From a virus, in the IMG/VR virus record IMGVR_UViG_3300037875_000130, positions 1 to 32,526 of that record: 32,526 nt of DNA, one strand, 5' to 3'. A program made the translations under genes and the position numbers. The notes beneath the pieces were generated by a model. That model saw only the letters and a list, made by a program, of their open reading frames with translations, was not told where the DNA came from and did not search any database. Within the stretch, counting starts at the first letter, position 1. The number at the start of each line of letters is the position of its first letter. Below, piece after piece: positions 846 through 30,719 of the stretch.

Positions 846-1146
846 GAACGAGTTTAATAAGGTATTCAAACTTAGTAGGGCAAACAATGAGTTTGTTTAC
901 TTCCTGTTTGTATCTCCTTGGGATAAGACTAGTGACCTGATAAGAAAGGAACTTGCCTCCTTGGATACTGACATTACCATTTACGAAGTGGACTACTTCA
1001 ACCTGCCTCATACTTATTGTGCCTTCAAGGCATATACGCCTTCTCTGGTGAAGATCAAAGGTCCTAGGACTAAAGTATTGTCTAACCTGATTTCTATTAG
1101 GTTTGAGTTGGGCCTCGATACCCTCGTAACTCCTCGTAATTCTTAA
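820..1146 (+). CDS. thioredoxin-fold protein lacking the CxxC active site
   Basis: From ATG 820 (GAGGAGG six bases upstream) this is 108 residues. It has the thioredoxin pattern: a strand (FVYFLFVSPW), a helix with DKTSDLIRKEL, a strand (ITIYEVDYF), a helix, and the cis-proline segment YTPSLVKIKG. The WCGPC redox motif is replaced by PWDKTS, with no cysteines, so it should not be an oxidoreductase. The best-known phage use of thioredoxin is as the host-derived processivity factor of T7 family A polymerase. This gene lies 330 bases from a family A polymerase, but a link is speculative. Its 3' end overlaps the converging sigma gene by 50 bases. Confidence 0.6.
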   Translation: MNLLRVKTENEFNKVFKLSRANNEFVYFLFVSPWDKTSDLIRKELASLDTDITIYEVDYFNLPHTYCAFKAYTPSLVKIKGPRTKVLSNLISIRFELGLDTLVTPRNS

Positions 1147-1447
1147 TCTTTTCTAGATATTTCTTATTCTTTGTATAGATAAGTTTTAAATTGTTAAGAA
1201 TGACGGTTGTAAAGTAGTTAAATGCACTACCATGCTTCGGATTGAAGTTTTGTAATGTTTTCAATATAAGCAAGAAACACTCTTGTTTAGCGTCATCAGC
1301 CTCTACTGAGAAGTTAAATGCCGTCATTACGTTAGATATAAGCAAATCGAACAAAGAAAATAGCTCTTCTTCGTAAACCCTGGGCTTATCGAGGTATAAT
1401 ATGATAAGCTCTTCAAAGCGTTTGTTGTCTATGTAATTCTTACTCAT
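1097..1447 (-). CDS. sigma factor with region 2 only, T4 gp55-like late sigma
   Basis: This 116-residue protein carries a sigma70 region-2 signature at residues 51-95: DDAKQECFLLILKTL, then NFNPKHGSAFNYFTTVILNNL. It corresponds to the E.....G...L..A...FDP..G..F..Y....I pattern of region 2.1-2.4, and the FNYFT wording resembles T4 gp55 and its relatives. There is no region 4, which also matches gp55; in T4 that late sigma relies on gp33 and the sliding clamp. It is transcribed against its neighbours from a TATAAT 10 bases upstream of the ATG. It would direct host RNA polymerase to late promoters; see the CTATATA motif at 9262, 24318, 26982 and 28235. Confidence 0.72.
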   Translation of the reverse strand: MSKNYIDNKRFEELIILYLDKPRVYEEELFSLFDLLISNVMTAFNFSVEADDAKQECFLLILKTLQNFNPKHGSAFNYFTTVILNNLKLIYTKNKKYLEKIKNYEELRGYRGPTQT

Positions 1448-1475: not shown

Positions 1476-2495
1476 ATGGATATTTCCAAATTATATGACG
1501 AGCATCCTGTACATGAGTATTGTACAGGATGTTCTCAACTAAAGAAGTCTAAACCTGCTCACGCAATTACTGATTATGTCTCCTTGGAAGAGGCAGATGT
1601 CCTGTTCCTCTCAGACTCCTTCACTTACATTAATGGAAGGTCAGACCCCTTCTCTTCTGATAGCCTAGACCTACTTACTGAAATTCTAGTAAAGTCTAAT
1701 TTACCTGGGGACTGCTCTATCTCTTTTAGTGCAGCAGTTAAGTGTCCCAAGGTAAGGGAATCAGATATGAAGACCGCAGATATGCAAGCCTGTAGGTCAC
1801 ACCTGTATGATACTATAGAGAAGGTAAAGCCTAAACTAGTGTTTACCTGTGGCAACTTAGCCATGAAGATGCTTACTAAGAAGTCTGGTATCACTACCAA
1901 AAGGGGATCTTCATTTGAGGTAGAGCTAGAGAGTGGATTCAAGACTATGGTGGTTCCTATTTATCATCCTTACGCAGTCCAGATAGAGCCTAAGATGAAG
2001 TTTATCTTTGAGCAAGATATTCTAAACGGTATTGATAAGGTTATATTAGGTAAAAAAGCAGAAGAGATTCCTTACACCTCTATCGTAACGATGAAGGATT
2101 TAAGGTCCGTAGAGTGGATGTGTGATACTTTAGAAGACCTTGCTGTAGATACGGAGACTACTGGGCTGAACTTCCTACAAGATACTATGAACACCATTGC
2201 TTTCTCAACTAGGGACGGGAATTATGCGTTACCCCTAATGCACAAGGATACTCCTTGGGATGAAGAAGAGTTAGTTGAAGTCCTTAGCTTCGTCAAGAAG
2301 GTCATGGAGAACCCTAACAACAAAAAGATCCTGCACAACGCGAAGTTCGACTTGAAATTCCTACATTCAGTTGATATTCATCCAGTCAACATCTATGATA
2401 CTAAGCTGATGGCTCACTTGTGGAATGAGGATATTCCTAAAAGTCTGAAGGAGCTAGTGAAACTATTTTTCCCTGAAGGTATTGATCAACTGTAA
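1476..2495 (+). CDS. DNA polymerase family A, N-terminal part: UDG-like plus 3'-5' exonuclease domains
   Basis: These 339 residues hold two domains. Residues about 15-185 resemble a family 4 uracil-DNA glycosylase: an early CxxC, AAVKCPKVRESD, ACRSHL, KPKLVFTCGNLA, TKRGSSF, and YHPYAV near the end. Residues about 205-339 are a DnaQ-like proofreading exonuclease with DTETTGL (Exo I) and HNAKFDLKFL (Exo II). Phage SPO1 polymerase is the known precedent for a UDG-like domain fused to a family A polymerase. The Exo III aspartate is in the next frame (start 2495), so this product alone would lack one metal ligand. The stop shares a base with the next start (TAATG). Either the gene is split or a frameshift lies between 2483 and 2495. 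Confidence 0.85.
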   Translation: MDISKLYDEHPVHEYCTGCSQLKKSKPAHAITDYVSLEEADVLFLSDSFTYINGRSDPFSSDSLDLLTEILVKSNLPGDCSISFSAAVKCPKVRESDMKTADMQACRSHLYDTIEKVKPKLVFTCGNLAMKMLTKKSGITTKRGSSFEVELESGFKTMVVPIYHPYAVQIEPKMKFIFEQDILNGIDKVILGKKAEEIPYTSIVTMKDLRSVEWMCDTLEDLAVDTETTGLNFLQDTMNTIAFSTRDGNYALPLMHKDTPWDEEELVEVLSFVKKVMENPNNKKILHNAKFDLKFLHSVDIHPVNIYDTKLMAHLWNEDIPKSLKELVKLFFPEGIDQL

Positions 2496-3007
2496 TGTTA
2501 ACTGTAACTAATAAAAACTTCGATTGGAGGAACATTCCTTTAGGTGACTGTCTTCATGGGAATGCCATGGATACATACTTTACGATGAAGATCTATGATT
2601 TGCTAAAAGAGAAATTGGAGGATGAAGGTTGCTGGAATGTGATGGAGAAACTACTATCACCTGTGATTCCTATCTTCTCAAAGATGGAGTTCGATGGACT
2701 TGATGTTGACCCTTCAATGTTGAAGACTGTTGGTAGGTCATTGGATCACAAATCAATGCTCCTAGAGGATGACCTATTACTAAACAGTAAGACCTTCAAA
2801 GACGCTAACTTAGCTAGTACCCAGGACTTGAAAAAGGTTATGTATACTGATGAAGATGGGTTGAACTTATACCCTCCTTTGAGAACCCCTAAAGGTGAGC
2901 CCTCTACGAGCAAACCTTCAATTGATATTTTACTTGATTTTATTAACGAAGAGCTAGAAACCCGTGAGAAAAAACAAAGAACAGCAAGAAAAGGAAATCG
3001 CTCTTAG
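2495..3007 (+). CDS. DNA polymerase family A, middle part (Exo III and thumb region)
   Basis: These 170 residues continue the polymerase in the -1 frame. FDWRNIPL and GNAMDTYFTMKIYDLL match the Exo III region of family A enzymes. EKLLSPVIPIFSKMEFDGLDVD is the conserved segment that leads into the polymerase domain, and the rest corresponds to the thumb. It begins at an ATG sharing a base with the previous stop and ends in an A-rich stretch where the next frame (+1) takes over. It has no catalytic site of its own, so it makes sense only fused to its neighbours, by frameshifting or after correcting an indel, or as an odd linker subunit. Confidence 0.7.
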   Translation: MLTVTNKNFDWRNIPLGDCLHGNAMDTYFTMKIYDLLKEKLEDEGCWNVMEKLLSPVIPIFSKMEFDGLDVDPSMLKTVGRSLDHKSMLLEDDLLLNSKTFKDANLASTQDLKKVMYTDEDGLNLYPPLRTPKGEPSTSKPSIDILLDFINEELETREKKQRTARKGNRS

Positions 3008-4076
3008 TGTAATTGGCGGTAAATCTACTGAAGATTTACTGGAGATTAAGGAGTGGATGGACAATTTTCTGAAGTGGAGGAGTTACTCTAAGCTACATAA
3101 AACTTATGTAACAGGTCTTCATAATGCTATTGATTACAATGGTGCTGATAAGGTGTACTGTGATTACCGATTAGATGGTACTGTCACAGGTAGGCTCTCA
3201 TGTGGCATGTATAGCGCGGAGAAGCCAATGGGCGTATCCTTCCACACTCTACCTAGAGATACTGATAATAACATTAGGAACCTATTCATAGCTCCTGACA
3301 ACAAAGCATTCATCACTATTGATTATGCAGGTATGGAGCTAAGGGTACTTGCTCATGTAGCTAATGATGAGAGGATGCTTGAAGCCTTCAGGGAAGGAGC
3401 AGACTTGCATACTTATTCCGCAAGCCTACTATTTAATAAGGCTCAGGATAAGATTAAAAAGGAGGAACGCCAGATTGCAAAAGCAGCCTCATTCCTTATC
3501 GTTTACGGTGGTACGGCATTTACACTTGCTAACAATAACCGTATCCCTCTGAAGAGAGCAGAGAAGATTATCAACACTTACATGGATGTCTTCCCAGGCA
3601 TTAGTGAGTACATCGAAAGTACTTATGCTACCATTAGAGAGAATGGTTATGTAACTTCCATCTTTGGTAGAAAGCGTAGGCTCCCTAATGTCAGGTCTAA
3701 TGATACAAAGGTTGTGGGTAGATCTTTAAGGCAAGGACTGAACTTTACAATCCAGTCAGCAGCATCAGATATTATCCTATGCTCTATCAAAGGATTGTCT
3801 GATAGACTTAAACCTTTTGGAGCAGATATAGTATCAACGGTACATGACTCCCTTGAACTTATTTGTCCCAAGGAAACTCTAAAAGAATGCCTTGAGGTAT
3901 GCTATGATGAGATGGTGAACACTCCTACCCTAGGGGAAGAGTTTGGTATTAACTTCAAAGTTCCTTTAAAGATTGATGCAGAGGTAGGGTATTCTTTCGG
4001 TGATGGTAATCCTGTTGATTATCAAGAAGGTGTTGTTAAAAATATGGACAGTTTGTTAGGTTACTTTAATGATTGA
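2964..4076 (+). CDS. DNA polymerase family A, C-terminal polymerase domain
   Basis: These 370 residues carry the palm and fingers: TGRLSCG, motif A (IDYAGMELR, about 119-127), the O-helix RQIAKAASFLIVYGG (about 168-182) and motif C (TVHDS, about 293). The R-K-F-Y spacing places Phe at the position equivalent to E. coli Pol I 762, the ordinary state for dNTP selection. The listed start is a GTG at 2964 overlapping the middle part by 44 bases. A six-A run at the overlap (near 2969-2974) would join the two frames if one A were removed. The gene ends with an 8-base overlap into thyX. Confidence 0.85.
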   Translation: MRKNKEQQEKEIALSVIGGKSTEDLLEIKEWMDNFLKWRSYSKLHKTYVTGLHNAIDYNGADKVYCDYRLDGTVTGRLSCGMYSAEKPMGVSFHTLPRDTDNNIRNLFIAPDNKAFITIDYAGMELRVLAHVANDERMLEAFREGADLHTYSASLLFNKAQDKIKKEERQIAKAASFLIVYGGTAFTLANNNRIPLKRAEKIINTYMDVFPGISEYIESTYATIRENGYVTSIFGRKRRLPNVRSNDTKVVGRSLRQGLNFTIQSAASDIILCSIKGLSDRLKPFGADIVSTVHDSLELICPKETLKECLEVCYDEMVNTPTLGEEFGINFKVPLKIDAEVGYSFGDGNPVDYQEGVVKNMDSLLGYFND

Positions 4077-5711: not shown

Positions 5712-7278
5712 TAAAGTAGAATTTCATAATTTTTATTCATATAAGTATGGTAAAGTTGAGTTTTCTAAGTATAATGGTGTAGTGACAATTGAGGGTCTAA
5801 ATAAAGACTCAGGAGGAGGAAGTAATGGTTCGGGTAAGTCTGTATGTTTGGAATCTATTGTATACGGTATCTTTGGTAAAAGCATTCGTAAGAGTACAGA
5901 GGATGCTATGGTCAATCATACCGTAGGTAGTAAGTGTAAAGTAATTGTAGAAGTGAATGATAATGTCAGGATTGAGAGGACTAGGAAGCCCACATCCCTA
6001 AAGTTATTTATAGATGGGGAGGATTGCTCCGAGGCTCACTCCTCTTCCACACAGAGGCGCATAGAGGACCTCCTAGGGACTGATATAAAGACCTTCATGG
6101 CTGCATCCGTATTCGGACAACACGCTAACACGGACTTCCTAGACGCTACTCCTGACGATAAGAGGAAGATCCTCAACAAGTTCCTAAACCTTGATTATAT
6201 CTTTGATATGAAGAATAGGATTAAGGTTAATAGAAGCAAACTTAAGAGGGGGATCAGGGACATAGAAGTATTATCTGATAGGTTGGAGGAGGACGCAGAA
6301 TCCTATAAGTTGAAATCTGTTTCTAGCTCACTAACTTTGGAAGAGATGGCCTTGCTAAACACTACTTCTTTAGAAAGTATTATTTCTGCTGAAAATCTAA
6401 TAAGAACTAGCCAAGCCAACTTGATTATTCTGAAGGACAAGCTACTATCCTTTGATAGTACTAAGATTGACAAGTGTAAGTCTGTAGTAAAGAAGGGTGT
6501 AGGTGCAAAGAACACTTATAAGTGTACGGAGTGTGGATCCAGCATGGGGGATGTTATTGACCAAGAGTTTCACGACTACTGCGCTACCTACATAGACAAG
6601 TTCAAGAAAGAAAAAGAAGAAATCCAACAACTGATAGAGGATAATAAAAACCTACAGGTAGAGCCTAAGATAAGCTCAGTTGAGTATGCAAGGTTATCTA
6701 ATTGTAAAGACAGGGATACCTATAAAGTCTTACTAGAAAAGGTCACTCAGGAATTGAGTGGTTTACATGAGACTAGGCTTTCCTTAGAAAGCAGGCATGA
6801 TATTATGGGCTTCTGGGACAAGGCTTTCTCAGAAAAGGGGTTGGTGAAATTTGTAATACGAACTATCAAGGACTACCTAAATACCCAATGTAGTTTTTAT
6901 CTAGGATATCTAACGAATGGTAACATTAGTGTAGAATTTGATGAAGAATTAAAGGAAAAAATTGAAGTAGGTGGAAGCCTCAGACACTACATATCCTTAT
7001 CTGGTGGAGAGAAACGGAAACTAAATCTTGCTGTGATGTTAGGACTTCAAAGTTTACTTACTATGTCCAACGGTCACAAGAGCAATTTACTGTTTTTTGA
7101 CGAAGTAGCAGAAAATCTTGATGAGAATGGAGTTATCGGACTCTATAATCTACTATGTGAACTGAAGAAGGATAAGACCATCTTCATTATTACACATAAT
7201 CAAGTCCTGAAGAGCCTTTTAGATTCCTCTAAAACCCTGATGGTAGTTAAAGAGGAAGGAGAATCAAAAATAATATGA
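5701..7278 (+). CDS. SbcC/Rad50-type ATPase subunit, T4 gp46-like
   Basis: This 525-residue SMC-family ATPase has Walker A GSNGSGKS (40-47), a CTEC zinc-hook motif near 275-278 in the middle of a short coiled coil, the ABC signature LSGGEKRKLN, Walker B LLFFDE (about 463) and the H-loop THN. It is about half the length of bacterial SbcC and close to T4 gp46, so the coiled-coil arms are short. It holds DNA ends and powers the gp47 nuclease. GGAG 7 bases upstream supports the start at 5701. The end overlaps nrdJ as ATGA. Confidence 0.93.
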   Translation: MKINKVEFHNFYSYKYGKVEFSKYNGVVTIEGLNKDSGGGSNGSGKSVCLESIVYGIFGKSIRKSTEDAMVNHTVGSKCKVIVEVNDNVRIERTRKPTSLKLFIDGEDCSEAHSSSTQRRIEDLLGTDIKTFMAASVFGQHANTDFLDATPDDKRKILNKFLNLDYIFDMKNRIKVNRSKLKRGIRDIEVLSDRLEEDAESYKLKSVSSSLTLEEMALLNTTSLESIISAENLIRTSQANLIILKDKLLSFDSTKIDKCKSVVKKGVGAKNTYKCTECGSSMGDVIDQEFHDYCATYIDKFKKEKEEIQQLIEDNKNLQVEPKISSVEYARLSNCKDRDTYKVLLEKVTQELSGLHETRLSLESRHDIMGFWDKAFSEKGLVKFVIRTIKDYLNTQCSFYLGYLTNGNISVEFDEELKEKIEVGGSLRHYISLSGGEKRKLNLAVMLGLQSLLTMSNGHKSNLLFFDEVAENLDENGVIGLYNLLCELKKDKTIFIITHNQVLKSLLDSSKTLMVVKEEGESKII

Positions 7279-9176
7279 CTAGACTAAAACTAACTGACCT
7301 TGGGCAGGAAATATTCCAAACCCGTTACGCATACCCTGGAGAGACTAAGTGGCAGGAAAGGGCTAAGGTGATCGCTAAAACTGTAGCGTCAGCGGAGGCA
7401 GACGAGGATAAAGAAAAGTACGAGAAGGTTTTTTATGATTCTATTGCTGATGGTGATTTCGTCCCTGGTGGTCGTATCATTTATGGAGCAGGAAGGAATG
7501 CGGGTAAGCACAACCTATTGAACTGCTATGTTATTTCCCCAGAGGACTCAGTAGCAAGCATTGGTAAAACTCTAGATGATATGTATACTATCTCTTGCGC
7601 TGGTGGAGGCATTGGGTTTAATGTGTCCAAAATTAGGCCGAAGGGAGATGATATTTCTAATGTAAAGAACTCAGCCCCTGGGGCAGTATCTTTCCTTAAG
7701 ATGATCAACGAGGTAGGGGAGCATGTAAAGTCTGGTAAGGCTAGGCGCACAGCCTTAATTGGTATTCTAAATGTAACTCACCCAGATCTACTGGAATTCC
7801 TACAGGTTAAGCTTGAGCAAGGTGAGCTAACCAATTTCAATATCTCTGTAGCTATTACTGACAGGTTTATTGAGGCAGTACAGCTAGATGAAGATTGGTA
7901 CTTTACTTTCAATAACAAAGAGTATCACAATTATGTCCTACAAGCCACGACAAATAAAGGAGTACAAAGGTTCTTAAATATAATTGCTCTTGATGAGGAA
8001 GACGCTATTGGTAGGGCCAAAGGTTTCCACCTAGAGGATTGGACTGAAACTTTTGAGGTTGTGAAGAAGGAGAACATCAAAGCTAAGTGGATTTGGGAAA
8101 AGATCTGGATGAATTCCGTCAATTCAGGTGACCCTGGAGTGTATAACATTGATCTATCTAACAAGCACACGAACACCAGCTACTTTGAAAGCCTTGATTC
8201 AACAAACCCTTGTGGGGAGATTCCTTTACCTAGCTATGGCAACTGCTGCTTAGGTAATATTAATCTTTCTAACATGGTAACTGATGATGGTGAAGTTGAT
8301 TGGCCTAAACTAGCTAAGACTGTTAGGGCAGGAGTTAGGTTCTTAGATAATGTTCTAACCGTGAACCATTTCCCTATTCCTAAATGTAAGGAAGTTGGAC
8401 ACAACTCTAGGAGGATCGGTCTTGGTGTGTTTGGTCTACACTATATGCTTATCAAACTTAGCCTACGCTATGGTAGTGAAAAGTGTTTGGAATTCCTTGA
8501 ACGACTATTCTCTACGATTAGGGATGAGGCATACAAGACTTCAATTTACTTGGCTAGGGACAAGCATCCTTTCCCTGCCTTTGATAAGGATAAGTATATG
8601 GCAGAAGGGTTCTGTAAGACACTCCCTATTCGCATTAGGCATTACCTGCGTAAGTATGGTATCAGGAACGCTGTTATCTTAACTGTACCTCCTACTGGGA
8701 CCATTTCCATGCTCATGGGCGTAAGCTCAGGCATTGAGCCTATCTTTTCTGCAATGTACCAGAGGCGATATCGTCAAGGGAATGTATGGAAAGAAACCCT
8801 TGTTGTTGACCCCTTGTTTAAGGAGTATCACGCTGCGGGTAAGGATCTAGGTGCGTTCGTAGGGGCTTATGACATTACCCCTGAGGATCATATGAGGGTA
8901 CAGGCTACTATTCAGCACTATATTGACAGCAGCCTAAGTAAAACTATCAATTTGCCAGAGGATTTCGAGCCCTCCACTATGATTGACCAAGCACTAGAAT
9001 TCATGCCCTCTATGAAAGGTATGACAGTATACAGGGCAGGTAGTAAAGGAAATGAGCCTCTTAAAGCTATCCCTTTAACTAAAGCTAATGTTGATAAGTA
9101 TATGGATCAGCCTAATGAAACCGCAAACGCAGACGGACAAGCCTGTACCATCGCAGGGGGTGGATGTGGGGACTAA
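7275..9176 (+). CDS. nrdJ: ribonucleotide reductase, class II (adenosylcobalamin-dependent)
   Basis: This 633-residue NrdJ-type enzyme reduces ribonucleotides to deoxyribonucleotides using coenzyme B12 and needs no NrdB subunit; none is seen nearby. Hallmarks are LLNCYV (Cys84), CAGGGIGFNVSKIRP, NPCGEIPL (about 310, thiyl-radical Cys), PPTGTISM (about 471), GMTVYR, and a C-terminal redox pair Cys624/Cys631 in CTIAGGGCGD. A segment of about 50 residues (roughly 208-261, rich in aromatic and Asn/Gln residues, with ALDEEDAIGRAKGF) interrupts the usual finger region and looks like an inserted small alpha/beta module. Dependence on B12 implies a host that makes or imports cobalamin. Confidence 0.93.
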   Translation: MTRLKLTDLGQEIFQTRYAYPGETKWQERAKVIAKTVASAEADEDKEKYEKVFYDSIADGDFVPGGRIIYGAGRNAGKHNLLNCYVISPEDSVASIGKTLDDMYTISCAGGGIGFNVSKIRPKGDDISNVKNSAPGAVSFLKMINEVGEHVKSGKARRTALIGILNVTHPDLLEFLQVKLEQGELTNFNISVAITDRFIEAVQLDEDWYFTFNNKEYHNYVLQATTNKGVQRFLNIIALDEEDAIGRAKGFHLEDWTETFEVVKKENIKAKWIWEKIWMNSVNSGDPGVYNIDLSNKHTNTSYFESLDSTNPCGEIPLPSYGNCCLGNINLSNMVTDDGEVDWPKLAKTVRAGVRFLDNVLTVNHFPIPKCKEVGHNSRRIGLGVFGLHYMLIKLSLRYGSEKCLEFLERLFSTIRDEAYKTSIYLARDKHPFPAFDKDKYMAEGFCKTLPIRIRHYLRKYGIRNAVILTVPPTGTISMLMGVSSGIEPIFSAMYQRRYRQGNVWKETLVVDPLFKEYHAAGKDLGAFVGAYDITPEDHMRVQATIQHYIDSSLSKTINLPEDFEPSTMIDQALEFMPSMKGMTVYRAGSKGNEPLKAIPLTKANVDKYMDQPNETANADGQACTIAGGGCGD

Positions 9177-9237
9177 ACCTAAAGAAGAAGAAGAATTTGA
9201 AAAATTACCCAAAGAAGGGGACGATTTAGAGGAATAA
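9115..9237 (+). CDS. small acidic ORF of 40 codons overlapping the nrdJ end
   Basis: An ATG at 9115 opens a 40-residue frame that overlaps the last 62 bases of nrdJ and runs to TAA at 9235. The product is polar: Gln/Thr/Pro in the first half, then a charged tail (KPKEEEEFEKLPKEGDD). Such composition beyond the nrdJ stop is more protein-like than chance, and the gap before the hairpin at 9243 would otherwise be empty. No good Shine-Dalgarno site lies before 9115. A GTG at 9166 with GGGGG upstream would give a 23-residue form. Function unknown; it could be a translated tail reached by frameshifting at the nrdJ end. Confidence 0.35.
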   Translation: MKPQTQTDKPVPSQGVDVGTKPKEEEEFEKLPKEGDDLEE

Positions 9238-9242
9238 CTTCT

Positions 9243-9294
9243 TTAAATACCTCCAAGTATTCTATATAACTTTAGAATACTTGGAGGTATTTAA
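9243..9294 (+). promoter_or_regulatory. perfect 22-bp hairpin that sequesters the spike gene RBS
   Basis: Bases 9243-9264 and 9273-9294 are exact reverse complements, separated by an 8-base loop (TATAACTT). The 3' arm contains GGAGG (9283-9287), the ribosome binding site of the spike gene whose ATG is at 9297. RNA read through from nrdJ should fold and hide it. RNA started within the hairpin should not. It may also act as a weak terminator, since a U-rich stretch follows. Confidence 0.85.
9262..9268 (+). promoter_or_regulatory. CTATATA motif at the hairpin tip, candidate late promoter
   Basis: CTATATA spans the 5' arm end and loop of the 9243-9294 hairpin. Used as a -10-type element it would start RNA near 9275, giving a spike message without the 5' arm and with a free ribosome binding site. 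The same heptamer precedes 13088, 24344, 27006 and 28261. Confidence 0.5.
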
Positions 9295-9296
9295 TT

Positions 9297-12200
9297 ATGG
9301 CTTGGAATAGAAAAGGTGGATATAGGCATCCGTATTTAGAGGAAGGAAAGACATTATATAATAAGGCTCGCGCATGGGCATATGCTAAAGTAGCTGCGGT
9401 CCCAACCAATGCCTTCACGGAACAACTCAGAAATGGGTCTATGTTCTACAATGATCATATCATCGTTGATTATGATTTTTCAGAGGTCGGCAGTGAATTT
9501 ATTTACAATAGAGCCCCTAATGGTATTGGGAACCGTATTAAACAGGTAGGTACTGAGTGGGTAAATGATACATCTAAGTGTACTTCTGGAATATCTACAA
9601 GTGGAGGCAGTTTTAACGGGAACGCTAGAGGTACTGCTGAGGCATTCATTACTGCCGTTAAGACTAACAAACAATTTGGCATTGATTTCTGGATGATGCC
9701 TAATGATTTCACTGATGGTGGTCCTCCTAGAATCCTTGAAATTTCTCCTGAAACAGGAACAGACTCTTGGTATAATACCAACATCTCTATCCTTCAAGGA
9801 GATCCAGCAACTGGAAACGCTGGTAATCACCTTCAAGTAAGGCTTAGAGCAACAAACGAATCAGGCGATCTTGATGGACAAGGTAGCCAAATGACCATAG
9901 CTTCCAACTGCTTAAGTGCAGGTGTAATGCAGCATGTAGGCGTAAGTGTAAGGAGTGTCGCTCCTTCCTTTGATGCCTCTGGCAATGTTGAAGTCAATGC
10001 TAACGTTAAAGTGGCTATATTTGTTAATGGAACTCTCAGAGGAAGTAATACTATTGAATTACCTTACTCTTATACTTATGATGATATTTTTGATTCTTGG
10101 AATGATTCTTATAAACTAAGTCTTTGTGATGCTAGTCGTACTGGATCAGCAAGCGCAGGCAGAGAATGGGATGGTGGAATTTTCAGACTAAGATTCTGGG
10201 ACGTTTCTCTTCCTACAACTCTGAACAATGATCTATATCTGGATGGTCCTGATGGGGACTTAACTTGTAATCAAGTTCCTGATAATGGTCAACAAGGTAG
10301 ACCTGGGGGAAGTGTTCATACTGCACCCACTGCTACTGATGATAACTATAACGTATCCTTTGGTAACGTAAAAGTATTAGATGTTTTAGCAAACGATTAT
10401 GCCTATCAAAGTAACACCATTATACCGTCAACATTAACAGCTACTTCTCAACCTGTTAGTGGAACTTTAACAAGTACTCCAGCAGGGAAGTTTACTTATT
10501 CTGCTACAGATTATGATGACACTACTCCTGCTGCTACGGATATGTTTACTTATAAAGTAAGGGATACTGGAGGAAAATGGTCTAGTGATGCTTCTGTTTT
10601 TGTTACAATAGCATCTGCTCTTGCAGGTTTTAATCCTACCGAACCGTTTGATTATGCTCTTAACCCTCCTGGAAGGTATGCCCCTTACGGTCACTCAAAC
10701 TCTCAGATTAGCTTCACAGGAGGCGCAGTATCTGGAGCTTTAGTAGACAAGTATGGTATTGATTGGCCCATTCCTTGGAAATCAACTACTGGACCTAACA
10801 ATGATCACTTTAAAATAGAAAAGTGGGGGGCTAACGCACACAATACCGAGGCTGATATTGTTCTTAGTGGGTTCAACCTTCTGTACCCTCAATTTGATGG
10901 ATTCAGTACGGGAAGAATTGATATTACTACGTCTGGAACGTATGAAAACTTTATTAGTTACAAGCCTATTAAAATCTTAGTTGATGGGGTAACTCTTAAG
11001 AACTTTATTGTAGACGTTTGCCTTGGCGGGTCTGACCCAGCAAGACAAAGGCTTTGGGATTTACATAACAGTACTGCTCCCTATGACACTAATGTAGCAC
11101 TAGAAAACTTAGGTTCTACTAATGATGGTGCTGGTCCTGCTTCTTATTATAACAACGCTAATTCAGGAGGTTATAATTACAAAAGGAAATCAGGACATGC
11201 TGGATACGGAATTCAGGCTAATGATGGGCAATCGGGTCCGAATCCTGAAAATACTCTACTTATAGATGGAATTATTAGAGGGGGTAGTTCTACTACTGTA
11301 CTTTGTGGACATAACATGACTATTAAACGGTGCGACCTTTCAGAAGGTGGTGGAGACGCTATTAAGAATAGTGGACATGATGTTTGTTGTGTAGGAAACT
11401 GGATACATCACAATGGGTTTGTAGCAGGATCACATGCAGATGCGTTCCAAACAACCTCACAATCTAGCGGGATTGATATGCTTGGAAACTTTGTTGATAT
11501 GCCCTTTACCAATAACTCTGGGCCTTATGGTACTAATGCTGTTTATATTGCTGGGCAAACTAAAGGTTCCCTTGTCAATGTAAACTTTGTTGGTAACTGG
11601 GCGATGGGAGGAAATCACGCTATTTCATATGGAATGGGTGATAAGTGGCAAAACTTCGCTGTTAGTAGTGCCATTCCTACTTCCGCTTCTGCTAGTGAGA
11701 ACTTCAGTTTAACTTCTGGTCAGTTTGCGGCTACCCCCGAGGCTTCAAGGCAACTTGTTGCTTCAAGTGTAGATCATCCTCTATTGAGGTTACAAAAGCG
11801 AATCTGCAAGGAGTCTGGTGAAAATTATTTTTGGGAAGTACCTAGTAATCTTTACTCATTCATTAATGCCTCTGGTATTATTGTTTCTGGAGATGCTAGT
11901 GTAGCTGGTGGATGGGATGAAGCTCAATGTAGTGGAAACACAGATTCTGCGGCTTGGGGCTGGGTTGATCAAGATGATCGTCCTTGTGACCTTATGTTTA
12001 GACCAACCTTGACAGCCGAGGATCAATTTGGAGATACCCAACCTGGAGGACGATATACTTCAAACTCTTCTAATGCGGCTGACCCTATGAAAGGGAACTA
12101 CAGACTAGTAAATAAATCGTCTTGTCAAGTACTTGGTTATTATGGGGACACACCTAATAGTAACTATGCTCCTAAACCTATGCTTAACTTTGTAGTTGCA

Positions 12201-12626
12201 GACAATAGGTGGGGTCAATATTCTCAGCATACTTTTGGGGCTCCTGATGGAGCGGGTAGTTGTTTTGATTTTATTACTGGTGGACCGAAAGTTACTATGT
12301 CTGGAACAGTTTCTGGACTTCTTTACTCAGGAAACGTATGGGACTATCCTAGTCAGCTTATGGGTCCTGCTGGGTCTAATCCCCCTGCTACAGGTTTCCC
12401 TGATTATAATACTATTCATGAGAATATGGGTTCAGACTATATGAATGATATTTGTATTCCTCTTAGTGGATTACCTCATCTACATGTTGGTGGTGGTAGA
12501 ATAAGCCTTGGAGAGTGCGATGACCTTTCAGCAGGTATTCCTTGGACAGGAGAACCTGGGAGTGCAGCAGCTAATTTCGATATTAATGTAGGAGATGCTC
12601 CATGCGCTCCTCCTTGGTGTCTATAA
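9297..12626 (+). CDS. tail spike or fibre: LamG-like, cadherin-like and beta-helix domains
   Basis: This 1109-residue secreted-looking structural protein has no signal peptide. Residues about 50-320 look like a concanavalin/LamG-type sandwich (YNRAPNG, IDFWMMP, a repeated strand pattern). Residues about 341-440 form a bacterial Ig/cadherin-type repeat beginning TATDDNYNV and containing VLANDYA. Residues about 460-1000 look like a right-handed parallel beta-helix with pectate-lyase-like turns: LLIDGIIRGG, MTIKRCDLSEGGGDAI, then SHADAFQ near 711. The same HAD segment and following NxF/YVDMPF pattern occur in the second spike (28261), so the helices are related. It probably binds or cuts a host surface glycan. 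Translation is likely gated by the upstream hairpin. Confidence 0.8.
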   Translation: MAWNRKGGYRHPYLEEGKTLYNKARAWAYAKVAAVPTNAFTEQLRNGSMFYNDHIIVDYDFSEVGSEFIYNRAPNGIGNRIKQVGTEWVNDTSKCTSGISTSGGSFNGNARGTAEAFITAVKTNKQFGIDFWMMPNDFTDGGPPRILEISPETGTDSWYNTNISILQGDPATGNAGNHLQVRLRATNESGDLDGQGSQMTIASNCLSAGVMQHVGVSVRSVAPSFDASGNVEVNANVKVAIFVNGTLRGSNTIELPYSYTYDDIFDSWNDSYKLSLCDASRTGSASAGREWDGGIFRLRFWDVSLPTTLNNDLYLDGPDGDLTCNQVPDNGQQGRPGGSVHTAPTATDDNYNVSFGNVKVLDVLANDYAYQSNTIIPSTLTATSQPVSGTLTSTPAGKFTYSATDYDDTTPAATDMFTYKVRDTGGKWSSDASVFVTIASALAGFNPTEPFDYALNPPGRYAPYGHSNSQISFTGGAVSGALVDKYGIDWPIPWKSTTGPNNDHFKIEKWGANAHNTEADIVLSGFNLLYPQFDGFSTGRIDITTSGTYENFISYKPIKILVDGVTLKNFIVDVCLGGSDPARQRLWDLHNSTAPYDTNVALENLGSTNDGAGPASYYNNANSGGYNYKRKSGHAGYGIQANDGQSGPNPENTLLIDGIIRGGSSTTVLCGHNMTIKRCDLSEGGGDAIKNSGHDVCCVGNWIHHNGFVAGSHADAFQTTSQSSGIDMLGNFVDMPFTNNSGPYGTNAVYIAGQTKGSLVNVNFVGNWAMGGNHAISYGMGDKWQNFAVSSAIPTSASASENFSLTSGQFAATPEASRQLVASSVDHPLLRLQKRICKESGENYFWEVPSNLYSFINASGIIVSGDASVAGGWDEAQCSGNTDSAAWGWVDQDDRPCDLMFRPTLTAEDQFGDTQPGGRYTSNSSNAADPMKGNYRLVNKSSCQVLGYYGDTPNSNYAPKPMLNFVVADNRWGQYSQHTFGAPDGAGSCFDFITGGPKVTMSGTVSGLLYSGNVWDYPSQLMGPAGSNPPATGFPDYNTIHENMGSDYMNDICIPLSGLPHLHVGGGRISLGECDDLSAGIPWTGEPGSAAANFDINVGDAPCAPPWCL

Positions 12627-12632: not shown

Positions 12633-13076
12633 ATGGCTATATACGAATTTATCTGTAAAGGATGTAAAGTAATATGGGAACGGGAAGCGTCTATGAAAAA
12701 GGCACCTTCCCGTTCCCGTTGTCCTGAGTGTAAAAAACTTAGTGAAAGGTACTGGGGAAATATTCCTATTATTTTCAACGGTTCTGACTATCATACTGTC
12801 AAAAAGAACCAGCACAATCTAGTATACAAGGACAAGGCTAAAGCCAAGGAAGTACATGAGGGTTTGGTTGATATTGCTAAAAAGCAAGCAGAAGAACAAA
12901 CCTCTCCGTACAAAAAGGTAGTCTTGAAAGATGGGGTAATGGATACCCTACATAAAGAAGGGAAAGTAACTAGAAAGACTGACACACAACTTAAAGATTC
13001 ACAAGAAACCACCGAAAAAATCAAAGCTTCCGTGTATAATAACCATTCAGGATACAGGAACTTAGGCAATCGGTAA
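12633..13076 (+). CDS. zinc-ribbon protein, FmdB-like
   Basis: This 147-residue protein opens with a two-knuckle zinc ribbon (Cys8, Cys11; Cys30, Cys33) in the style of FmdB family regulators (MAIYEFICKGC). The remaining 110 residues are lysine- and glutamate-rich and probably helical or disordered. Related small phage proteins occur near structural and DNA-metabolism genes, but their job is unknown. The ATG at 12633 has no ribosome binding site and lies five bases after TATAAT. Confidence 0.6.
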   Translation: MAIYEFICKGCKVIWEREASMKKAPSRSRCPECKKLSERYWGNIPIIFNGSDYHTVKKNQHNLVYKDKAKAKEVHEGLVDIAKKQAEEQTSPYKKVVLKDGVMDTLHKEGKVTRKTDTQLKDSQETTEKIKASVYNNHSGYRNLGNR

Positions 13077-13087: not shown

Positions 13088-14398
13088 ATGTACAACTTTT
13101 CAGATAACATTCAGCGAGGCATCATTAACCTTGCCAAAAGCAATTTAGATTTCCTCAACGAAGCTGCTCCTTTAATTAAGAGTGAGTTCTTTGAGTACCC
13201 CATACACGGAGTCCTATTTGATGGGATTACGGAGTTTTTCACTAAGTATCATAAGCTACCTAATGATGATTTCCTCCTTGAATTCTGTAAAGGTAAGAAG
13301 AGGCAAGCTGAGAGCATCTCTGAGTATGAGGACGAACTTTATAGTGTAAACAACTTGGACACATCTACAAGTAACAACCCAGCGTTCGTTATTGATTGTG
13401 TAGAGAAGTTTGCCAAAAGGGAGTCCATGAAGCAAGCTATCACAAAGTCTGTTGATCTGATGAAGGAAGGTCGCTTTGATGAGATTGAAAAGGAAGTAAA
13501 GGATGCTTTGCTTGTGGCTCGTTCACAAGATTTCGGGCAGGATTACTTCAAAGATGTAGATGAGCGTTGGACTCGCATTAACTCTGTCAATGATGGGGAT
13601 TACATTAAGACTTGCTTACCTACCCTAGACAGGGGTTTGATTGGAGGAGGCTTAGGTAGGAAGGAGTTGGCTATTGTTATTGCAAGCGCAGGTTTGGGCA
13701 AGAGTATTTACTTAGCTAACCAAGCTGTTAAGTGTCTGGTTGAGAACCTAAAGGTTGCCTTTGTCACTCTAGAAATGAGTGAGGACAGGGTAGCTCAGAG
13801 AATCGACTCGATTTCCACCTTGATTCCACAAGCTACTATTGGGAATGAAAGGGAGCAAACTCTCCTCAAGCAACGACATAAGATCTTCCAGAAGACCTTC
13901 AACAAAGCAGATCTAAGGATCAAAGAGTTCCCTACTGGGAATGCTAATATTAATTCTGTAAGGGCATGGCTGAACCAGCTTCAAAACTACGAGGGTTTTG
14001 TACCCGATGTTGTCATTGTTGATTACCTAGAGCTACTACGTCCCTTGAGGGATGGTATGAGCGAGTATGAGGGCCAACAGAGGGTCGCAGAGGAACTTAG
14101 GGGCCTCGCCATGGAGAAGAACATTCTTGTCTGGAGTGCCTCTCAGGTCAACAGGTCAGGAAGGGGTGCAAGGATCGTAACTGACGAGCATTTGGCAGAC
14201 TCCTATGGTAAGATTCGTGTAGTAGACTTAGCAGTATCTCTCAATCAGGACGAGGAAGAGTTTGATGAAGGAACCATGCGTATCTATGTGGTAAAAGCTA
14301 GAAATGGCAAATCCAGGCACCTTATCCCCATCACCATCAACTATAATACTCTAGTGATGCAGGAAATAGAAAATGGTAGCCAAGAGTCTGAAATCTAA
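13088..14398 (+). CDS. replicative DNA helicase, DnaB/T4 gp41-like
   Basis: This 436-residue RecA-fold hexameric helicase should unwind the phage fork 5' to 3'. After a helical N-terminal domain come GLGRKELAIVIA, Walker A ASAGLGKS (about 198-205), FVTLEMSEDRVAQR (H1a region), Walker B VVIVDYLELL, and SASQVNRSG (H3 region) with RGLAMEKNI before it. Length fits gp41 and DnaB. The last 26 bases overlap the next gene. No primase is visible in the window. Confidence 0.92.
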   Translation: MYNFSDNIQRGIINLAKSNLDFLNEAAPLIKSEFFEYPIHGVLFDGITEFFTKYHKLPNDDFLLEFCKGKKRQAESISEYEDELYSVNNLDTSTSNNPAFVIDCVEKFAKRESMKQAITKSVDLMKEGRFDEIEKEVKDALLVARSQDFGQDYFKDVDERWTRINSVNDGDYIKTCLPTLDRGLIGGGLGRKELAIVIASAGLGKSIYLANQAVKCLVENLKVAFVTLEMSEDRVAQRIDSISTLIPQATIGNEREQTLLKQRHKIFQKTFNKADLRIKEFPTGNANINSVRAWLNQLQNYEGFVPDVVIVDYLELLRPLRDGMSEYEGQQRVAEELRGLAMEKNILVWSASQVNRSGRGARIVTDEHLADSYGKIRVVDLAVSLNQDEEEFDEGTMRIYVVKARNGKSRHLIPITINYNTLVMQEIENGSQESEI

Positions 14399-16514: not shown

Positions 16515-16544
16515 TTGTAATTCACAATAAGGTATCACTATTAT

Positions 16545-16578
16545 AAGGTGGAAGGCTTTACGGTCTTCCACCTTTTTT
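16545..16578 (+). terminator. rho-independent terminator after the SSB operon
   Basis: A 13-bp stem (16545-16557 with 16562-16574, two G-T pairs) with a TTAC loop runs into six T residues. It ends only three bases before the ATG of the first sugar-cassette gene at 16582. That leaves no room for a separate ribosome binding site. Confidence 0.85.
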
Positions 16579-16581
16579 ATT

Positions 16582-17769
16582 ATGACAAAATTAAAGATTT
16601 TAGTAGTTCCTGCGAACGATGGTGGCTGTGCGTACTTTAGAGCCTGGGCTCCTTTCAAAAAGCTTCAAGAGCTTTATCCAGACAAGGTAGAGGTTAGGTT
16701 CAACAAGAACCCTTTAGGAATGGAAGAAGAAGGAGAGAAGGCAGGTAAGTGGAAACCTGATTGGGAGTTTGAAGATATGAAGTGGTCAGACATTGTGTTC
16801 ACCCAGAATCTTTCTAACTTCGGTGGGCCATATACTGCTAGGATTATGGGTAAGGCAAAAGAGTTTGGAAAGTTAGCTCATTATGATACGGATGATCTTT
16901 TAACTGATGTTTATGAAGGCCATAGGTTACATGGTGTGTACAAAGAAAAGCAGCTTGGAGAGGTTACAAAGTTTATCTATAACAATGCTGATCTAGTAAC
17001 AGTTACCCAGAAGAAGTTCGCAGAGAGAGTACTTCCTTTTATTGGAAACGGAATGTTAGCAGTTGTAAAGAATGCTATTGATTATAATCTACCTTGTTGG
17101 AATATGCAAAAAATTCCTTCAAAGAAGGTTTGTAGGTTTGGGTGGGTTGGTGGAATTCACCATGAGCAGGACTTGAAGGAGTTCAATGCTGTACCTAACT
17201 TGGTTAATCAGAAAGCAGGTGTAGAGCGTGTCTCTTGGACTTTCTTCGGTAGACCTCCCGTAGACCCTAATAAGGGACCAGACTGGCAGCAGGAGGTATG
17301 GGATAGCTATGAGAGGATGCTGCTTAGAGGTATGAGAGGAGGTAGGAACTGGATGGTTAGACCAGCTATGGGGCCTGATCAGTATGGGCAGTTTTATACT
17401 CAGATGGATGTAGCTATTGCCCCTCTACAAATGAACCCCTTTAATGATTCTAAGTCTGAATGTAAAGTGGCAGAGTGTGGTAGGTACGGTATTCCTCTTG
17501 TAGCTTCTAATGTAGGTTGCTATGACGAAACCATTATCAACGGTGATACTGGTTACTTGATTGATCCTGCTAACACTAAATCAGATTGGGTTAGAACATT
17601 AACTAAGATTTCAAAAGATAAAAAAGGAAGGGAAGAGATGGGTCGAAACTTGAAAGAGTTAACAGATGAATATTTTGATCTAAATAAAGTTGTAAAATTC
17701 AGACTAGACCTCTATAATGAAATGATGAGTAAGTATAATGAAGAGCCAAGTAGTAAACATTCTAACTAG
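16582..17769 (+). CDS. GT-B glycosyltransferase, GT4-like
   Basis: This 395-residue GT-B enzyme has an N-terminal Rossmann half (KILVVPANDGGCAYFRAW) and a C-terminal nucleotide-sugar half with SECKVAECGRYGIPLVASNV, then ETIINGDTGYLI. The latter is the group 1 pattern in which an acidic residue holds the donor sugar. It opens the sugar cassette. No Shine-Dalgarno site lies before the ATG because the preceding terminator ends three bases away. It overlaps the next gene by 32 bases. Donor and acceptor are unknown. Confidence 0.85.
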   Translation: MTKLKILVVPANDGGCAYFRAWAPFKKLQELYPDKVEVRFNKNPLGMEEEGEKAGKWKPDWEFEDMKWSDIVFTQNLSNFGGPYTARIMGKAKEFGKLAHYDTDDLLTDVYEGHRLHGVYKEKQLGEVTKFIYNNADLVTVTQKKFAERVLPFIGNGMLAVVKNAIDYNLPCWNMQKIPSKKVCRFGWVGGIHHEQDLKEFNAVPNLVNQKAGVERVSWTFFGRPPVDPNKGPDWQQEVWDSYERMLLRGMRGGRNWMVRPAMGPDQYGQFYTQMDVAIAPLQMNPFNDSKSECKVAECGRYGIPLVASNVGCYDETIINGDTGYLIDPANTKSDWVRTLTKISKDKKGREEMGRNLKELTDEYFDLNKVVKFRLDLYNEMMSKYNEEPSSKHSN

Positions 17770-28260: not shown

Positions 28261-30234
28261 ATGAATGAAAAAGAATTTCTCGCTGAGTCCTTAAAGGGTT
28301 ACGATACTATTAGAGCAGCATATGCTTCACGCCTGAGTTCCTTAGGTGAGCCTGTAGACCCTCCTGTAGTAGACCCTCCTATTATTGTACCTCCTTCTAA
28401 TGCTTTACTTGCAGATGGAACTGCTAGGGTTGGTGTTTGGATGCAAGGAACCAATTCCCAGGACACTATAGATAGTTGGCGTAATCTAGGCATTGATATG
28501 TTCGTAGGTCATTGGAAAAACCTAACCCTAGCTGATCACAATTTAATGGACCAAAATTCCTTACCTTATGTCCTTGAAGCGACACAAGAAGAGGTTTATA
28601 CTGAGTCTACAGGTATTATGGTTAACCATGAGCCTGACATTCACCCCCAAAATCCCCCTTCTGAAATTTTAGCAGAGGCTAGAGCTTATAAAGAAGGTGG
28701 AGGGAAGCAGCCTGTATATGTTTTCTTTGGTAAAGGTATTTGTGTAGAAGGTTGGTTCGGCATGGGTCCGAGTAATGGACAACCTTGGTCTGGTGCGGGA
28801 GCAGGGTTTGAGTATTACAAGACTATTTGTGAGTCCCCGTATGTTGATGGGTTAATGTTTGATTATTACCCGTACAATGCGGCACCCACTAAGCAGAAAA
28901 AGATTGGAGCCTCTACCTCAAACCCTGTGGTTGATGACCCTGAATATGTAATTGATGGACTAAAGAGACTAAAGCAGTTTTCTAACGGTAAACCTGTGTA
29001 TGCTTCTTTATCTGCCAGTAGAATCAAGAGAGAGCTTTTTGAAACTCCACCAAGCCTAACCCAAAACAAAGCTATTGTACAAGACTTACTAGCTAATGGG
29101 GTTGACGGCATTATTTGGTTCGCTCACGATTTTGAGGATGGTAAGTATGTAACGGATAAGCACCCTCTTACTGCTGAAGGTGTTACTAATGGGACTGCTA
29201 ACATGGTAAAAGTTTGTTCTGACCTTGTAAGAGAGCATTTCTCTGGGGTTATTGTTGATCCTCCTGTGGACCCCCCTATTGTTGATCCTCCTGTAGATCC
29301 TCCCATTGTAGATCCTCCCATTGTAGATCCTCCTATTGTTGATCCTCCCATTGTTGATCCTCCTATTGTAGATCCTCCTATTGTAGATCCTCCTGTCAAC
29401 AATTTACCTGAACCTTTTGAGGGACAGAGAAGTATACAGGATATTAAAGATAACGCAGGATGTGATGATGGGATTAGGGATTTACCTGCCTCTCCCTCTG
29501 TTACTATCAAAACCGATGGAACTGTTCTTGAAAATATGCACCTAAATGCTACTATTAGGGTCAAGGCAGATAATGTTATTATTAGAAACTGCTACATTAC
29601 TGGGGCTGCTAATTATGGAATTCAAAGTACTTTTGGACATAAGAATCTATTGATTGAGAATTGTACCATTAGAGGTCAAAGTTCTTGTGGCATTTATACT
29701 GGCAGTAACACTCATATAAGAGATTGTTATATAACTGAGAGTGGTTCCGATGGTATGAAAGTTCAAGGAGACGATGTTCTAGTTGAAGGGTGTTGGGTAA
29801 GAAGGATTGGAACTATTCCCTCCTCTCATGCTGATTGTGTACAAAGTAGAGGAAGCAACCATAGGAACAGTTATTATAATAACTACTTTGATATTCCTTT
29901 CTATGATTCCTCTTTTTATGAGGATGGTTACAAATCAAATGCTTGTTTCATGATCCAATCTGACCTTGGCCCTATTACTGATATTGTTATTAAGAATAAC
30001 TGGTTACGAGGTGGGTCGTACATGGTTTACTTCACTCATAAAGATACGAAGAACTTCCTTCTTCAAGGTCTATTGGTTGAGGATAACTTCTTCTCTAGAG
30101 AGGGATCCAGACTTCAGGGTGCTAAGTCTACCTTGATGAGTGTGAAGGATACAGCTAAGGATGTTGTTATTAAGGGTAATCTTTGGTTTGAGGCTGGAGA
30201 TTTAGATGGGATGAGCATCCCGAATAACCAATAA
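28261..30234 (+). CDS. tail spike: TIM-barrel-like domain, VDPP linker and beta-helix domain
   Basis: This 657-residue protein is modular. Residues 1-30 form a helical start (possible virion anchor), followed by a short VDPP stretch. Residues about 55-330 look like a (beta/alpha)8 glycosidase-like domain (VGVWMQG, DMFVGHW, PVYVFFG, GLMFDYYPYN, KPVYASLSA, GVDGIIWFAH). Residues about 332-378 are a VDPP-repeat linker. Residues about 380-650 are a right-handed beta-helix with NVIIRNCYITG, LLIENCTIRGQ and SHADCVQ (about 521), matching the HAD segment of the first spike. It probably recognises and degrades a surface polysaccharide. Catalytic residues cannot be assigned with confidence. Confidence 0.8.
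   Translation: MNEKEFLAESLKGYDTIRAAYASRLSSLGEPVDPPVVDPPIIVPPSNALLADGTARVGVWMQGTNSQDTIDSWRNLGIDMFVGHWKNLTLADHNLMDQNSLPYVLEATQEEVYTESTGIMVNHEPDIHPQNPPSEILAEARAYKEGGGKQPVYVFFGKGICVEGWFGMGPSNGQPWSGAGAGFEYYKTICESPYVDGLMFDYYPYNAAPTKQKKIGASTSNPVVDDPEYVIDGLKRLKQFSNGKPVYASLSASRIKRELFETPPSLTQNKAIVQDLLANGVDGIIWFAHDFEDGKYVTDKHPLTAEGVTNGTANMVKVCSDLVREHFSGVIVDPPVDPPIVDPPVDPPIVDPPIVDPPIVDPPIVDPPIVDPPIVDPPVNNLPEPFEGQRSIQDIKDNAGCDDGIRDLPASPSVTIKTDGTVLENMHLNATIRVKADNVIIRNCYITGAANYGIQSTFGHKNLLIENCTIRGQSSCGIYTGSNTHIRDCYITESGSDGMKVQGDDVLVEGCWVRRIGTIPSSHADCVQSRGSNHRNSYYNNYFDIPFYDSSFYEDGYKSNACFMIQSDLGPITDIVIKNNWLRGGSYMVYFTHKDTKNFLLQGLLVEDNFFSREGSRLQGAKSTLMSVKDTAKDVVIKGNLWFEAGDLDGMSIPNNQ
29254..29394 (+). repeat. 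coding VDPP repeat (ten copies)
   Basis: Tandem 12- and 15-base units (GTW-GAT-CCT-CCY with or without ATT) encode ten VDPP blocks joined by Ile or directly. The protein should be an extended, stiff polyproline-like spacer between the two spike domains. Synonymous third-base differences show it is not freshly amplified, but copy number could still vary by slippage. Shorter VDPP blocks occur near residue 31. Confidence 0.92.
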
Positions 30235-30252: not shown

Positions 30253-30279
30253 TTGAAATCCATGCCTTGTGTCTATAAT
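30253..30279 (+). promoter_or_regulatory. promoter of the dCMP deaminase gene, predicted leaderless
   Basis: TTGAAA (30253-30258), 15 bases, TATAAT (30274-30279), then five bases to ATG 30285. GTGTCTATAATA is identical to the site before 12633. No Shine-Dalgarno site lies between. Confidence 0.6.
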
Positions 30280-30284
30280 AAGGC

Positions 30285-30719
30285 ATGGATAAACAAGAGA
30301 GATACGACCATTTTTATATGGACCTTGCAGTAAGGGTATCTTTAATGTCCCATGCTGAGAGAGCTAAGGTTGGTGCTATTGTAGTAAAGGATGATAATAT
30401 TATATCCTTTGGATGGAATGGTACGCCTAAGGGGTTCAGTAACAGTTGTGAGGTTTTTAACGAGGTTACTAGCGTAACTAAGAAGGAAGTTATTCACGCT
30501 GAACAAAATTGTATTGCTAAGTTAGCAAAGAGTGGGCACTCAAGTAATGGGGCTACTTTATATGTAACCTTGTCTCCATGTTTCACTTGCTCTACCTCCT
30601 TGATTCAGTCAGGGATTAAACGAGTCGTTTACAAACACGCTTATCATACCGATGGGTGTGTCTTATTGAAAAAAGCTGGGATAGAAGTATCCCAAATCAC
30701 AGAGGATCATAATGCCTGA
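30285..30719 (+). CDS. dCMP deaminase
   Basis: This 144-residue enzyme converts dCMP to dUMP, feeding ThyX (4069). The zinc site is HAEQN (His71, Glu73) and SPCFTC (Cys99, Cys102), with GAIVVKDDNIISFGWNGTPKG upstream, the family's substrate loop. The end (HTDGCVLLKKAGIEV) matches the usual C-terminal helix. It is expressed from a TATAAT five bases before the ATG without a ribosome binding site, and overlaps the next gene by 8 bases. Confidence 0.92.
   Translation: MDKQERYDHFYMDLAVRVSLMSHAERAKVGAIVVKDDNIISFGWNGTPKGFSNSCEVFNEVTSVTKKEVIHAEQNCIAKLAKSGHSSNGATLYVTLSPCFTCSTSLIQSGIKRVVYKHAYHTDGCVLLKKAGIEVSQITEDHNA

Follow-up and report, generated by a model that had tools for sequence, protein, structure and literature searches.

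The spike-like gene of an uncultured virus (IMG/VR record IMGVR_UViG_3300037875_000130, whose positions 1 to 32,526 constitute the window analyzed in this work) is directly preceded by a perfect hairpin, the stem of which is predicted to bury the Shine-Dalgarno (SD) sequence of the gene, and a late-type TATA box, i.e., a putative promoter, is placed at its tip so that the RNA started from it would lose the 5' arm. The best explanation of this arrangement, to which we assign a probability of roughly three in four, is a promoter-in-hairpin timing switch of the type known from genes e and soc of phage T4. RNA reading through from the ribonucleotide reductase (RNR) operon would contain both arms and fold, burying GGAGG and leaving the spike untranslated. 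At late times of infection, TCTATATA at the hairpin tip would be read by the host RNA polymerase carrying a gp55-like sigma factor, and the RNA starting near position 9274 would lack the 5' arm, so that its ribosome-binding site would be open and the spike made. Such a switch would go with the insertion of spike genes into an operon of DNA metabolism.

The hairpin and its putative promoter

Table 1. Positions of the analyzed features within the 32,526-nt window
Feature	Position	Strand	Remarks
5' arm of hairpin	9243..9264	+	contains CCTCC, pairing with the Shine-Dalgarno sequence
Hairpin loop TATAACTT	9265..9272	+	8 nt
3' arm of hairpin	9273..9294	+	carries the Shine-Dalgarno sequence
Shine-Dalgarno sequence GGAGG	9283..9287	+	spacer to ATG of 9 nt
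Candidate late-type promoter box TCTATATA	9261..9268	+	CTANATA kept in all relatives; Aeh1-type core (PMC2988020)
Predicted 5' end of promoter-initiated RNA, ~9274	9273..9276	+	from T4 late-promoter geometry; see opening cost
116-aa sigma-region-2 protein, candidate gp55-like late sigma factor	1097..1447	-	weak matches
RNR gene, upstream	7275..9176	+	source of the expected read-through RNA
Spike-like gene, 1109 aa	9297..12626	+	Ig/cadherin-like domain; region resembling the beta-helix spike at 28261
Zinc-ribbon (FmdB-like) gene, downstream	12633..13076	+	CTATAATA ahead at 12621
DnaB-type replicative helicase gene	13088..14398	+	downstream of the zinc-ribbon gene

No inverted repeat in the window is stronger than that formed by the two arms (22 bp, 100% complementary). 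An earlier note on this DNA had described a perfect 22-bp repeat with an 8-base loop, GGAGG within the 3' arm and CTATATA overlapping the loop, all of which was confirmed exactly; the motif lies at 9262-9268, with its CTA at the top of the 5' arm and its TATA within the loop. The distance from the stem to the ATG, given there as three bases, is actually two (TT). When the window was shuffled 60 times (first order), the longest perfect stem (with loops of 3-20 nt) was 8-12 bp. RNA folding of the 101 nt around the hairpin gave a minimum free energy of -34.9 kcal/mol (z -5.67), and none of the shuffles was equally good. The Rfam search with the hairpin returned sub-threshold matches only, mostly to miRNA precursors, which is no more than expected of any long perfect hairpin.

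In the scan of positions 8800-9500, which take in the stretch between the RNR and spike genes, no terminator-like site was found, and read-through RNA is therefore expected. If the geometry of T4 late promoters applies, the 5' end of the promoter-initiated RNA would lie at the very start of the 3' arm, and the whole 5' arm would thus be missing. In the window, opening of the start region is predicted to cost 17.5 kcal/mol in the read-through RNA vs. about 4.5 kcal/mol in the promoter-initiated one, and for the five spike hairpins the cost drops from 12.3-17.7 to 3.7-6.0 kcal/mol.

CTATATA is not rare in the window overall (8 found vs. 10.3 expected), and four of these eight sites lie 24-35 nt upstream of a start codon. 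Over five related genomes, with counts that include the hairpins themselves and genomes akin to one another, the enrichment in the 45 nt before starts was 17-fold for CTATAATA, 15-fold for CTATATA, 6-fold for CTACATA, and 3-fold for CTAAATA; the last of these, which makes up the core in three of five loop types, has one other upstream instance in the five genomes. The promoter motif derived de novo was ACTATAATA, and its matrix scores the loops no better than 5-20% of random 54-nt windows. The assignment of a promoter to the loop therefore rests on the CTATATA enrichment, the conservation, and the core of the late promoter of Aeromonas phage Aeh1. In that promoter, a/gC at -13/-12 replaces TA (PMC2988020), which gives the CTAAATA core found in three loops; unlike it, the loops analyzed here have T at -13, and the window version is CTATATA. 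A scan with the loose pattern CCTCCAAG, which gave mostly chance matches, was discarded.

Promoter-like boxes were also observed at other genes. Either CTATAATA or CTATATA is located exactly 12 nt upstream of the ATG in 12 genes (at 12621, 23112, and 30273 in the window, as well as in the relatives G001, G003, G005, and G008), and boxes at this distance would predict leaderless mRNAs in the clade. Another promoter-in-loop hairpin, at 30258-30290 (z -6.2), has CTATAATA in the loop between the stem arms ATCCATGCCTT and AAGGCATGGAT and is predicted to cover the start codon of the gene at 30285, which codes for dCMP deaminase; this hairpin is present in the near-identical G018 and absent in G001. 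Directly upstream of the ATG of the glycosyltransferase gene (window ~16535-16582), a promoter-like box is followed by a terminator-like hairpin, and its equivalents in L011, G001, and G005 are conserved in place and not in sequence.

Relatives with and without the hairpin

Exact matching of 44 nt, together with a gapped search, located the hairpin in nine further virus contigs. In each of them, it stands directly upstream of a gene starting with MAW or MGW, and every spike found at the RNR-helicase site has it ahead. The hairpins have five loop types, each opening with TTCTANATA; 26 core arm bases and the CTANATA of the loop are invariant, and the 5'-arm core CCTCCAAGTATTC is the same in five clades. 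The arm spacing is 12 nt in the window vs. 11 nt in the other clades. In relatives, the paired core goes down to 13-17 bp plus G-U, and both the SD pairing and CTANATA are retained. It should be stressed that the adjacent RNR gene is close to saturation at its four-fold sites, which are 36-40% identical when the window is compared with the distant clades, with 25 of 171 (15%) identical in all five; the invariant hairpin block set against these diverged sites suggests strong constraint or recombinational homogenization. The arm sequence is conserved beyond the needs of pairing, and the comparison for compensatory changes proposed in the earlier note yielded no compensatory pairs in the family, so the pairing is not proven by covariation.

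The spike genes behind the conserved hairpin differ between relatives: two different spikes, each with its own copy of the hairpin, lie in tandem in L003/L007, and L001/L002 has only one of these two types. Six outgroup contigs (L203, L204, L205, L207, L211, and L215; about 45-52% helicase identity) contain neither spike nor hairpin and keep the order RNR-zinc ribbon-helicase, with 42-78 bp from the RNR to the zinc-ribbon gene. In L226, the spike site is occupied by a different gene (HEAT repeats) and there is no hairpin. In the simplest reading, the spike and the hairpin would have entered together, a direction suggested by the outgroup. L023, which gave a weak zinc-ribbon match, proved to be an unrelated phage.

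The spike gene sits among DNA-replication genes (the RNR-helicase operon), and a gp32-like SSB gene is also located downstream of it. The term "spike" remains an annotation by similarity, with a region apparently related (E 2e-19) to the beta-helix part of a second spike at 28261; CTATATA is present at the latter gene and the hairpin is absent. Across the RNR stop, after a GGGGG run, there is a 25-aa frame (9160-9236), which could be a frameshift tail or a leader; a conserved leader peptide was ruled out, as L008 does not have the frame. The RNR gene of the relative L011 (3549-6533) holds an intein with a LAGLIDADG domain.

Type of phage and its late transcription genes

Within the longest relative, G001 (112 kb), genes for gp23, tail sheath, gp17-type terminase, and portal (gp20) were identified, and gp23 is encoded also by G003 and G017. 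Judging by the capsid, tail, and late-sigma-like genes, the group belongs to the T4 superfamily, its best-sampled relative being a myovirus. There were no megablast matches to isolated phages, the best helicase identity to these was about 33%, and the scan of genome contigs with the helicase revealed no relative; the phage is a member of an uncultured, deeply diverged T4-like clade. The statement of the earlier note that its polymerase is not T4-type holds for the DNA polymerase, which belongs to family A, and not for the group as a whole, whose position in the T4 superfamily makes a T4-like late system less surprising than was implied. The DNA polymerase is spread over three frames (window 1476-4076), i.e., a UDG and 3'-5' exonuclease part, a 170-aa piece, and the polymerase domain.

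The candidate late sigma factor is a 116-aa protein with a weak match to Sigma70_r2 (sigma region 2), and its homologs, that of G001 among them, match phrog_234, the PHROG of T4-type late sigma factors. This evidence for a gp55-like factor in the group may be considered weak but consistent. The PDB search with the sigma alignment gave no match. The profiles of gp33 and gp45 (PF16805 and PF02916) gave no matches in five incomplete records, in which divergent versions could be missed, and the late system is thus only partly identified.

Known systems and rival explanations

In T4, e and soc are late genes reached by early read-through RNA; their SD sequence lies in the 3' arm of a hairpin, which contains a late TATA box, and the late RNA is devoid of the 5' arm (PMC3014915). 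The window hairpin likewise has the SD sequence in its 3' arm and a predicted late-type TATA box inside, and the T4 e leader AATACCTTCTATAAATACTTAGGAGGTATTATG is arranged in the same way, with an SD region resembling that of the window. Unlike in T4, the perfect stem is longer (22 bp), CTATATA occurs in place of TATAAATA, and the gated gene, predicted here from sequence, would be a spike inserted in the RNR-helicase operon. In the case of I-TevI, I-TevII, I-TevIII, and segB of T4 and mobE of Aeh1, a ribosome-binding site hairpin, mostly with a late promoter, gates a gene inserted in an early or middle operon (PMC2988022). The spike resembles these in being an inserted gene that is presumably gated within an operon, although it is a virion gene and not a homing endonuclease.

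A counterpart of those endonuclease hairpins is present in the clade: in the relative L181 (55% helicase identity), a gene for an HNH endonuclease is preceded by an unrelated stem of 17 bp, with CCTATATAA within its loop and GGAGG in the 3' arm, and this stem, followed by a T-run, may have a double role as a terminator. The scan for CCTCC..CTATATAA..GGAGG returned 9 strong hairpins among 32 matches, vs. 0 among 40 in the reversed-motif control. In four of the nine, an ORF starts right after the stem in the direction of the promoter (L242 (HNH), L252, L254 (the same contig as L181), and L258), and others are oriented oppositely, e.g., at the GIY-YIG gene of L264/L266.

The two-transcript switch put forward in the earlier note is favored, since the hairpin and its loop motif are conserved where the flanks are not, hairpin and spike are jointly present or absent, the loop motif is enriched and matches the Aeh1 core, and independent stems share the design. 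Counted against it were the scarcity of CTAAATA elsewhere, the poor scores of the loops on the de novo matrix, the lack of compensatory changes, the hairpin-less second spike at 28261, the undetected gp33 and gp45, and the weak sigma match. The same invariance of the arm sequence itself in five clades, not just of the pairing, with no compensatory change, could also indicate a DNA operator, in which the palindrome would bind a dimeric phage repressor or activator over the promoter and RNA folding would be incidental; we consider this rather unlikely, because the arm spacing varies between the window and the other clades, and the pairing buries the SD sequence exactly, as happens also in look-alikes with other arm sequences.

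Still less probable is an element of RNA processing or stability (an RNase III site or a 5'/3' stabilizing stem) between the RNR and spike messages, with no promoter inside. By established knowledge, RNase III could plausibly act on a perfect duplex of 22 bp, yet the SD pairing and CTANATA stay in those relatives whose core is shortened and contains G-U pairs, and the loop motif is left unexplained. Identical copies ahead of different spikes and in tandem in L003/L007, together with arms identical across diverged genomes, would fit a repeat whose main role is to provide homology for the recombinational exchange of spike cassettes. There is only a slight chance that this is its main function, as the inverted symmetry, the SD pairing, and the loop motif remain unexplained, and such exchange may act alongside the switch. 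An intrinsic terminator or attenuator downstream of the RNR gene would account for a stable intergenic stem-loop, but the stem has no U-run behind it and the region is free of terminator-like sites, which makes this the most improbable of the four.

The best-supported reading is gating of the known T4 e/soc/I-TevI type, with a spike cassette as the gated unit in this new clade. A mechanism documented for a few genes of T4 would thereby be extended to the receptor-binding genes of uncultured, deeply diverged T4-like phages, and there would be a sequence-level reason why a spike gene can sit, and be exchanged, inside a replication operon. More tentatively, and with the odds rather against it, the hairpin-promoter could head a swappable spike cassette. 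Spikes could then be inserted, duplicated, or exchanged within an early operon and still not be translated at the wrong time. A second promoter at the cassette end, CTATAATA located 12 nt upstream of the zinc-ribbon ATG, would drive the operon again, and the promoter-in-loop layout would also hide the leaderless start at 30285.

The T4 version of the motif, TATAAATA, gave 36 strong hairpins among 121 matches, and some of these precede genes that are read as terminase- and endonuclease VII-like. Taken together, the look-alike scans and the layout of T4 e suggest that the architecture combining an SD hairpin with a promoter is widespread, and hairpins that bury the SD sequence and have a TATA box at the loop may serve as a searchable signature for late-gated genes of metagenomic phages. 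In other phages (L314, L317, L324, L353, and L396), a hairpin with TATAAATA in the loop is conserved ahead of a 249-aa gene, which is probably another gated structural gene.
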